Of a DNA stretch of 64,000 bases, positions 32,331-34,358 are shown one piece after another. The stretch is from Roseobacter fucihabitans (GTDB lineage Bacteria; Pseudomonadota; Alphaproteobacteria; Rhodobacterales; Rhodobacteraceae), in contig NZ_CP143423.1 of assembly GCF_014337925.2 (NCBI RefSeq), positions 650,501 to 714,500 on the forward strand. Reading direction: 5' to 3'. The position numbers and the translations under genes are program-made. Each line of letters opens with the position of its first letter. Position 1 is the stretch's first letter. The notes under the pieces were generated by a model, which saw nothing but the letters and a program-made list of their open reading frames with translations, was not told where the DNA came from and did not search any database.

Positions 32331-32463
32331 TTCGATATACCGAGCGGTTGGCCCTCGCAGGGATCGAGCCCTTGGTTGGTGCTGTCGGTGATTTCTATGA
32401 CAATGCCTTAGCCGAAACAATAAACAGCCTTTACAAAGCCGAAGTCATCCGTCGCCTAGGGCG
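32328..32463 (+). mobile_element. C-terminal fragment of an IS3-family transposase
   Basis: About 45 codons (RYTERLALAGIEPLVGAVGD, then YDNALAETINSLYKAEVI) match the end of an IS3 OrfB, including the third catalytic Glu in ALAETIN. It has no start and no stop before the next element begins. The subgroup differs from the neighbouring IS3 at 32464. A fossil left by nested insertion or deletion. Confidence 0.8.
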
Positions 32464-32526
32464 TGGACCTGTCGCGGTTTGATGCCGCTCCTTTGATAGC
32501 ATTTACTGCACCAAAGGAGACGGACT

Positions 32527-32802
32527 ATGGGACTGAAACGAACGGACGAATTCCGCCAAGATGCAATGCGTATCGCATTGACCAGTGGGCTGACGCGCAA
32601 GCAGGTGGCTGACGATCTGGGTGTCGGGATGTCGACGCTGAACAAATGGATCACCGCGCACCGAGATACAGACGTGGTGTCGAAAGAGGATTTGAGCCTC
32701 GCTCAAGAGAATGATCGACTTCGACGGGAGAACCGACTCCTGAAGGAGAAGAGGGAGATCTTAAAAAGGGCCACCCAGTTCTTCGCGGGCCTAAAGCAAT
32801 GA
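32527..32802 (+). CDS. IS3-family transposase OrfA
   Basis: 91 residues: an N-terminal helix-turn-helix (LTSGLTRKQVADDLGVGMST, then LNKWITAH) that binds the element ends, and a leucine-zipper-like coiled coil (LAQENDRLRRENRLLKEKRE). It is intact and has the normal size. Its stop overlaps the start of orfB in ATGA at 32799-32802; in IS3 elements the fused OrfAB transposase is made by frameshifting. Confidence 0.9.
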   Translation: MGLKRTDEFRQDAMRIALTSGLTRKQVADDLGVGMSTLNKWITAHRDTDVVSKEDLSLAQENDRLRRENRLLKEKREILKRATQFFAGLKQ

Positions 32803-32816
32803 GATTTAGGTTTATC

Positions 32817-32852
32817 CACTGCCCGGCAGTGCATTGAAAATGCACGAGAGGG
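32817..32852 (+). repeat. hairpin element, copy a (36 bp class)
   Basis: Inserted after codon 6 of orfB (MRFRFI) and before GAAGAACAC. Starts CACTGCCCGGCAG, ends GAGAGGG. The apex stem is GTGCATT-GAA-AATGCAC. The length is a multiple of three but the insert has an in-frame TGA. Confidence 0.85.
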
Positions 32853-32987
32853 GAAGAACACAGGTGCAGCTTCCCAGCCAACCGGTTGTGCAATGTTGTG
32901 GGCGTCAGCACAAGCGGGCTACGCGCATTCCGCAACCGTCCTGCCAGCCGAAGACGGCGGTCTGACTTGGTCACGCTTGCGCACATC

Positions 32988-33023
32988 CATTGCCCGGCAG
33001 TGTATTGAAAATACATGAGAGGG
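32988..33023 (+). repeat. hairpin element, copy b (36 bp class)
   Basis: Inserted between LAHI and KERSRL codons. Starts CATTGCCCGGCAG, ends GAGAGGG. The apex stem is GTGTATT-GAA-AATACAT, differing from copy a by a paired C-G to T-A change. It also has an in-frame TGA. Confidence 0.85.
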
Positions 33024-33181
33024 AAGGAGCGGTCCCGTCTCAGCCCGGGCAGCTATGGTCGACCGCGCATGACTGAAGAGCTGAAGGAGATCGGTCTGAA
33101 TGTTGGCCATCGTCGTGTTGGTCGTCTGATGCGTCAGAACGGAATAACCGTGGTCAGGACCCGTAAACACAAGGTCACAAC

Positions 33182-33222
33182 CATTGCCCGGCAGGCGATT
33201 GCACAGCAATCTGCTGAGAGGG
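33182..33222 (+). repeat. hairpin element, copy c (41 bp class)
   Basis: Inserted between KVTT and DSDHKF codons. Starts CATTGCCCGGCAG, ends GAGAGGG. The outer stem GGCAG/CTGCT and inner stem ATTGC/GCAAT are separated by a GCG bulge. Boundaries are certain to one base. Confidence 0.85.
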
Positions 33223-33478
33223 GGACAGCGACCATAAGTTCAACATAGCGCCGAACCTGCTGGATCGGGACTTCACCGCAGATGCGCCAAATCAGAAGTG
33301 GGCTGGTGACATCAGCTACGTTTGGACCCGAGAGGGTTGGTTGTACCTGGCTGTCATCCTCGACCTGCATTCAAGGCGCGTCGTTGGTTGGGCCGTCAGT
33401 AATCGCATGAAGCGCGATCTGGCAATTAGGGCGCTGAAGATGGCGATTGCATTCCGGTTACCGCCGAAAGACTGCATT

Positions 33479-33519
33479 TATTACCCGACAGGCGATTACA
33501 AGGTAATCTGCCGAGAGGG
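33479..33519 (+). repeat. hairpin element, copy d (41 bp class)
   Basis: Inserted between DCI and HHTDRG codons, next to the second catalytic Asp. Starts TATTACCCGACAG, ends GAGAGGG. The inner stem is ATTAC/GTAAT, a compensatory change relative to ATTGC/GCAAT in copies c and e. Confidence 0.85.
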
Positions 33520-33633
33520 CACCACACGGATCGCGGCAGCCAATATTGTTCTCATGATTATCAGAAGGTCCTGCGCCAGCATGGCTTCAAGGTATCGATG
33601 AGCGGCAAAGGAAATTGCTATGATAATGCCGCC

Positions 33634-33674
33634 CCCTCTCGGCAGATTGCTTTGCAATCGCCTGCCGGGCAATG
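33634..33674 (-). repeat. hairpin element, copy e (41 bp class, inverted)
   Basis: Read on the minus strand it starts CATTGCCCGGCAG and ends GCCGAGAGGG, with stems GGCAG/CTGCC and ATTGC/GCAAT fully paired. It lies exactly at the deletion that joins YDNAA to the YAFERKVA end of orfB. Confidence 0.85.
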
Positions 33675-33725
33675 GTACGCTTTTGAACGGAAAGTGGCTT
33701 AAACGAGCACCTGGGGCGGCACAAA

Positions 33726-34358
33726 AGCGCGACAGGTCCAGTCCGGGCGGTGATGTATGAATATGGCCATGTTTTTCCGCTAGGCATTGCGAACCTCAAG
33801 CGTATCGAGGCCACCCTTGAGGGATCGAACGGAGAGCTACCTGAACTGGCCCTTGAAGCGTGCCGAGATCTCATTTTACAGATCGCCGAGAAGACAGCCC
33901 GAATTGAAGCCAAAACGAAGAAAGCCAAGGTCCTGTCAAAGAATGCGGATTTAACCCGGCAATTACAGACGATGCCAGGCGTTGGACCTCTAACGGCGTT
34001 AGCTATTGAAGCTTTTGCTCCGCCGATGAGCAGTTTTAAATGTGGGCGGGATTTTGCCGCCTGGCTTGGTTTGGTGCCCCGTCAACATTCCTCAGGCGGC
34101 AAGGCCCGGCTTGGGCGGATCTCAAAAGCAGGGCAGGCTGACATTCGCCGGCTTTTGATCATTGGAGCAATGATGCGGCTCAACTGGCTTGGACGCAAGT
34201 CGATCCGGCCAGGCTCGTGGCTGGCGCGAATGTTAGAGAGAAAGCCTCGGATGCTGGTGGCAATCGCATTGGCAAACAAAATGGCGCGCGCGATCTGGGC
34301 CATGATGACGCATAATGAAGATTACAGAGATCCGACGCAGGCGGCAGCAGCAGTATGA
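33726..34358 (+). pseudogene. IS110-family transposase, N-terminally truncated
   Basis: About 203 codons remain from MMYEYGHVFPLGIANLKRIE to the natural stop. The Transposase_20 (helix-hairpin-helix) region is clear: LQTMPGVGPLTALAIEAF near 33970, then CGRDFAAWLGLVPRQHSSGG and ISKAGQADIRRLLIIGA. The N-terminal DEDD catalytic domain is missing, cut where the neighbouring IS3 ends at 33740, so the element is dead. Confidence 0.85.

Follow-up and report, generated by a model that had tools for sequence, protein, structure and literature searches.

The orfB gene of an IS3-family insertion sequence (IS) in Roseobacter fucihabitans is interrupted by short hairpin-bearing inserts, which probably represent a small non-autonomous mobile element of Rhodobacteraceae and their relatives that is moved by an enzyme acting in trans, settles in transposase genes and is carried further by the ISs that it enters. 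The IS lies in a 64,000-nucleotide stretch of contig NZ_CP143423.1, referred to below as the window. In an initial annotation of this DNA, four inserts, two of 36 and two of 41 bases, were recognized in orfB, and all four are present with the ends then described (inserts a-d, Table 1). When they are left out, the gene reads, as had been claimed, as a stop-free frame of 227 codons from MRFRFI to YDNAA, and over all 227 residues the joined protein is 91% identical to the uninterrupted frame of a genome of the same genus (G017), in which orfB encodes 285 amino acids and is insert-free.

The Host IS and Its Inserts

In a four-way DNA alignment, inserts a-d are clean insertions relative to G017, with exact boundaries and not a single target base duplicated. 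This empty homologue and the scattered presence of inserts among relatives uphold the proposal of exact, duplication-free insertion; exactness holds at the window locus, but by our own reading the boundaries are off by one base at loci L060 and L062 and in genome G012. Plain read-through is ruled out, as originally argued, by TGA codons in a and b and by the frameshifts that c and d introduce. The count of four inserts was short by one, a minus-strand element (e) having been overlooked, and the statement that the gene shows no other damage has to be abandoned: the segment from YDNAA to the C-terminus spans 157 bases in G017 vs. 49 in the window, element e included, and the deleted stretch encodes VETFFKTIKAE, which we take to carry the third acidic residue of IS3-family transposases. 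Because this C-terminal end has been deleted, the window orfB is a dead gene, independently of the fate of the inserts. At about position 3729 of L047, a locus in the same genome, orfA is fused to the right flank of site c and an element lies at the joint; here too, as with element e, an element borders a deletion.

Table 1. Positions of the host IS, its genes and the hairpin elements in the window.
Feature	Position	Strand	Remarks
Host IS3-family element	32464..33740	+	Internally deleted; terminal inverted repeats; copies with different flanks
Left terminal inverted repeat of host IS	32464..32491	+	Inverted-repeat pairing
Right terminal inverted repeat of host IS	33713..33740	-	Inverted-repeat pairing
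orfA of host IS	32527..32802	+	91 aa; element-free
orfB of host IS	32799..33633	+	Interrupted and 3'-truncated; 227 codons without a-d; C-terminal end with the presumed third acidic residue missing
Hairpin element a	32817..32852	+	36 bp
Hairpin element b	32988..33023	+	36 bp
Hairpin element c	33182..33222	+	41 bp
Hairpin element d	33479..33519	+	41 bp; A-type ends (TATTA.../C)
Hairpin element e	33634..33674	-	41 bp; antisense; at the orfB deletion junction

A Family of Hairpin Elements

The inserts share the architecture CAYTGCCCGRCAG - variable hairpin - GAGAGGG and a size of about 36-45 bp; the ends, CAYTGCCCGRCA and GAGAGGG, are fixed, and between them lies one hairpin in which the stem sequence is free but paired. 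A search of the genome and of related genomes, which the initial annotation had recommended, was productive. The pattern CCCGRCAGN{10,30}GAGAGGG has 118 matches in the R. fucihabitans genome vs. none for the reversed pattern, so chance repeats are excluded there; stretches fetched around the listed sites contained 114 matches, the window included, which correspond to 46 distinct sites among the matches listed. Of 394 genomes in the bacterial family, 98 contain a match to a stricter pattern. Among 59 relatives, 33 contain a match, some of these clearly due to chance and devoid of a hairpin, and the reversed control yields scattered single matches in this set too. A scan of named genomes returned at least 120 matching stretches, and most of the 80 that were listed come from Rhodobacteraceae or relatives; the other listed carriers are Cohaesibacter, Labrenzia and a metagenome-assembled genome (MAG) of Rhizobiaceae, along with one MAG labelled Planctomicrobium and one labelled Clostridia, whose matches may be fortuitous. 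A shorter pattern matched 23 viral contigs, in which nine sites passed a folding-energy filter.

The conservation of the hairpin is apparent in 229 distinct elements, a set that leaves out one viral type with low stem content. The folding energy of the variable part is -8.9 vs. -4.2 kcal/mol for shuffled sequences and is the lower of the two in 213 of the 229; the longest perfect stem is 6.0 vs. 3.5 for the shuffles, and 113 different stem arms are represented. Variants that end in GGGAGGG, or are one base short, occur at L014, L037, L065, L135 and L262 and fall outside the pattern, and the family is therefore larger than the pattern counts indicate. In GC-rich DNA, the related loci L241, L249 and L118 have in common an unusual 45-nt hairpin, of the TTTTTCGCAGAAAAA type, at a single site; no transposase homology was detected at L241 and L249, the two of these loci that were tested, which makes this a possible non-IS host. 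An Rfam scan of positions 32400-33800 of the window gave two matches, both below the gathering score, and no description of the element was found in the literature searched, from which subscription papers were largely absent.

Host Genes of the Elements

The site sets used for host, target and viral counts were filtered by folding energy alone, which retained 42 of the 46 own-genome sites (four dropped). Transposase homology is detected within 600 nt of 40 of these 42, the remaining two being assigned to IS genes by eye only, and within the same distance of 105 of 140 sites in other genomes and one of the nine sites on viral contigs; visual inspection supplied 18 of the 37 query proteins, and part of the query set was drawn from the same loci, so these counts include some self-hits. 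Independently of these queries, among 40 sites chosen at random from the 140, 19 matched Pfam, 21 matched nothing, which is partly explained by true frames that were not the longest ones, and none matched an unrelated family. The 19 comprise 17 with transposase, integrase-core or IstB matches (one below cut-off) and two with a helix-turn-helix match only. Scans of 89 and 106 flanking frames recovered mainly transposase families (25 of 45 and 25 of 42 families listed, respectively); among the families listed, T2SSE, MatE, Flavodoxin_5 and a phage integrase domain were each matched once. The restriction to transposase genes is strong, if not necessarily absolute. The ISs that carry elements belong to the IS3, IS481-like, IS21, IS66, IS256, IS1182-like, IS6-like, IS630-like, IS110 and IS200 types, several of these names having been assigned by eye.

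Recurrence at Single Bases and the Choice of Target

Elements recur at the same base of homologous genes. When pairs of different loci with flank identity below 90% are compared, 64 of 178 homologous-site pairs coincide in both base and orientation, vs. 4.1 expected from the target motif; the pairs are non-independent and the expectation ignores descent. The 129 same-orientation pairs include 64 at offset 0, four at one base and none at 2-10 bases, and the 49 opposite-orientation pairs include none at offset 0 or within 3 bases. Shared sites often hold different hairpins: three of them occupy site a, in the window, in L121 and in G031, where the hairpin is 38 bp long and lies at the identical position.

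One of the shared positions, site 113, was followed through an IS3 clade. In a 25-row IS3 tree, the site is filled in L102, L208 and L179, which are placed on separate branches (support for the separating forks, 97-98/91-96%), and is empty in 22 rows. When the clade was sampled as 30 loci from 30 genomes and two earlier loci, three loci do not span the site, and all 29 that span residues 106-120, loci with no previously known insert at site 113, are uninterrupted there. Within this sample, L363 is empty at site 113 and carries a variant element near residue 149, where L179 and L098 have elements as well, and L353 contains a half-element near residue 79. A third-codon bias between copies that share an insertion was considered as a sign of function with the inserts in place and dropped: in the tree, 22 of the 25 rows have no insert at the site concerned, and independent insertion is at least as good a reading of the bias.

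Both orientations with respect to the host gene are used. At 131 of 219 sites (a few chance viral ones included) the element is antisense to the longest joined frame and at 88 it is sense, and the better supported frames (n = 107) divide into 67 antisense and 40 sense. Codon phases 0:1:2 at the sites in these 107 frames are 43:12:12 (antisense) and 18:9:13 (sense), vs. 613:286:314 and 593:386:253 for RTC^G motifs across those frames. The excess of phase 0 in antisense is at most mild, and there is no sign of site selection by the reading frame of the host, a possibility rejected given that the codon phases are near the RTC^G background.

The target is the weak motif YCRTC^G (mean score 3.3 bits), and the CRTC flanking bases are already present in empty homologues. 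The bases at element positions 1 and 5 covary (C..G in 174 and T..A in eight of 187 sites), and in the same set the first target base is C in all eight elements with A at position 5 and G in 153 of the 178 with G at this position; in a larger site set, the first target base is C in 11 of 13 A-type elements. At homologous sites (L068/L069/L135 and L261/L103/L179/L183) the element type tracks the target base, which suggests that the ends of the element themselves take part in target choice. The predicted unpairedness at targets is 0.372 vs. 0.294 (n = 120 each), a small rise to which no significance test was applied. A guide role for the variable stem was rejected, there being no excess of complementarity or identity to the flanks in six tests (z from -0.5 to 1.3).

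Copies and Movement of Interrupted ISs

The window IS is present in the genome in five full copies that are 99.5-100% identical over 1277 gap-free bases, sit in different flanks and all carry the five elements (one copy has a point change in element a); three partial copies and two diverged relatives (L047 and L057) were also matched. Since five-element copies occupy different flanks, the dead IS moved after it had acquired all five elements, presumably in trans. GTC is found on both sides of L061, and there is no clean duplication at the other copies. Four further interrupted ISs are multi-copy in this genome, namely an IS1182-like element (six copies), a second IS3 (six copies, 99-100% identical across the IS portion), a third IS3 (four copies) and an IS21 (three copies and a partial one). 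The IS1182-like gene contains two inserts, encodes 478 amino acids when these are left out and, across the 1201 bases queried, is 100% identical in its six full copies; a relative at 81%, itself partial, is shorter by one element length and looks empty at that site. Two of the five, the window IS3 and, by our own reading, the second IS3, are broken for other reasons, and thus such copies multiply without working themselves. Interrupted copies number eight in G012 and six in G031, with no full-length match at E values up to 1e-30. A relative with 71% identity to the host IS, represented by 19 uninterrupted rows among the matches listed in the R. fucihabitans genome, is weakened as a candidate mobilizer of the host IS by the difference between their ends.

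A fragment of an IS110-family gene, recognized by eye (33750-34358, plus strand), directly adjoins the right end of the host IS3, which suggests nested ISs. In L353 of genome G345, a half-element (hairpin and GAGAGGG) located about 70 nt ahead of the transposase match abuts an IS3 end of the window type (...CGCGACAGGTCCA), as would be expected if an IS of this type had entered an element. At site c of G016 (L304, 1785-3013), a 1229-bp stretch consists of an element split by an IS110-like insertion of about 1.2 kb; a further element, in reverse orientation, lies near the right end of this stretch. The IS110-like sequence was considered as the autonomous form and judged to be an insertion into an element.

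How the Elements Might Move

A mobile hairpin of the kind proposed at the outset might move as folded single-stranded DNA, or in another hairpin-dependent form, with a mobilizing enzyme that would be supplied in trans and with end bases that would help to pick the target. The interrupted IS would be a dead passenger, carried to further loci by transposase from elsewhere, and this transport would also multiply the inserts. Several observations weigh against the proposal. No mobilizing enzyme or autonomous version was found, the only candidate parent being the IS110-like gene inside the element of G016, and the case for single-stranded movement consists of the conservation of the hairpin, the lack of duplication and the small rise in unpairedness. 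Nearby transposase homology is not detected at 35 of the 140 sites in other genomes and eight of the nine viral sites, and a motif of about 3 bits fails to explain either the recurrence or the bias toward transposase genes. Similarity is higher between hairpins at shared sites than between random ones (0.795 vs. 0.679), and the hairpins are identical in six of the 64 coinciding pairs vs. 0.6% at random, so that the recurrence could partly reflect descent with precise loss; the stem that L102 and L208 have in common, absent from other sites among the 276 collected, is more easily explained in this way. Finally, no insert-free close copy was found in the R. fucihabitans genome for any of the five multi-copy interrupted ISs examined.

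The last point would fit working interrupted genes, and it keeps alive a weaker form of the idea of tolerated inserts put forward in the initial annotation. The strong form, in which RNA processing eliminates the inserts or ribosomes bypass them so that interrupted transposases still work, agrees with the restoration of open frames in many transposases on removal of the inserts, and with the IS1182-like gene, whose only insert-free counterpart is the partial relative. It is nevertheless highly improbable, given that both orientations are used with codon phases near background, that the window gene lacks its catalytic end, that the second IS3 is likewise broken elsewhere in its frame and that site 113 is empty in all 29 spanning loci of the IS3 clade that had no known insert there. 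Precise DNA excision at an appreciable frequency, such that the few cells with a working transposase move all copies in trans (as in IES-like or peel-and-paste schemes), fits the orientation independence and the exactness of insertion, and would account for the scattered empty sites and for multi-copy interrupted ISs without intact siblings. The comparison of L047 with L057 points in the same direction: the two have a rare hairpin in common where the window copy has none, and L047 is nearer to the window copy than to L057 over most of its length. Excision still appears unlikely, considering that no excised sibling copy was seen in the assembly, that excision could not revive the window IS and that the similarity of hairpins at shared sites is raised only partly.

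Two known enzyme systems were considered as movers. Repetitive extragenic palindromic sequences (REPs) of the GTAG or CGTC kind, mobilized by a RAYT (Y1, IS200/IS605-like) transposase, resemble the elements in size, single hairpin, lack of duplication and presence in Alphaproteobacteria. However, no match to Y1_Tnp (PF01797) was found in G016, G031 and G020, which contain 22, 17 and 12 pattern matches, respectively (some of those in G020 hairpin-less), the elements lie mainly inside transposase genes instead of extragenically, and a GTAG/CGTC tag is not part of the element, so that this origin seems quite improbable. IS110 elements insert without clear duplication, and the hairpins might accordingly be minimal derivatives of an IS110/IS1111 element that are moved by the bridge RNA system; the IS110-like gene within the element of G016 and the presence of IS110 domains in 13 of 15 element-bearing genomes tried are consistent with such a derivation. 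IS110 is present in four of five genomes without an element match. However, no IS110 domain match (E up to 0.001) was obtained in the element-bearing genomes G117 and G025 (the latter a draft in about 190 contigs), and the arrangement in G016 looks like an element entered by an IS, a situation known from REPs; we regard an IS110 origin as very doubtful. As some genomes with elements lack a match to Y1 and others a match to IS110, neither enzyme is needed, barring its later loss.

More speculatively than the proposal of a mobile hairpin itself, and on balance doubtfully, the elements might constitute a new class: a hairpin of about 40 bases that homes, with single-base precision and without duplication, into the transposase genes of unrelated IS families, with end bases that aid targeting, an undescribed enzyme and the role of a hyperparasite or natural transposon silencer. 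If so, they would rank among the smallest of known mobile elements, unusual in preferring transposase genes and in recurring at single bases in diverged homologues; they would provide a testable lead toward a novel site-selective DNA insertion activity, and they would bear on how cells or parasites disable transposons. Many 'frameshifted' roseobacter transposases may be the result of hairpin insertions rather than random decay.

Comparison with Known Systems

Hairpin-bearing inserts of similar size, removal of which joins an open frame, include the mitochondrial byps and the bypassed segment of phage T4 gene 60. The likeness extends to insert size, hairpins and the open frame obtained on removal; in contrast to these systems, in which inserts are sense-only and host genes functional, the present elements are used in both orientations (67 antisense, 40 sense) and, at the window locus, lie in a dead gene. 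Miniature inverted-repeat transposable elements (MITEs) are likewise short, non-autonomous mobile DNA, and one of them, RUP of pneumococcus, favors ISs as targets. Unlike MITEs, the present elements show no combination of terminal inverted repeats and target site duplication, their ends pairing only over CCC/GGG; they measure only 36-45 bp, and no parent IS was found.

REPs are single palindromes of 20-40 bp present in many copies, some of them inside genes, and the CGTC REPs are mostly alphaproteobacterial and have no known transposase (PMC3733652); the main text of that paper mentions neither Rhodobacter, Roseobacter, Silicibacter, Ruegeria and Dinoroseobacter nor the term 'IS elements.' The present elements resemble REPs, REPINs and CGTC REPs as short single palindromes of high copy number and differ from them in lying mainly in transposase genes, in having exact empty sites at the window locus and in combining the fixed CAYTGCCCGRCA and GAGAGGG ends with free stems and no GTAG/CGTC tag. 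ISs are also known to enter REPs as targets (PMC1525189), a situation comparable to the IS110-like element within a hairpin in G016 and to the IS3 end that abuts the half-element of L353, whereas in the family described here it is the hairpin itself that lies in ISs.
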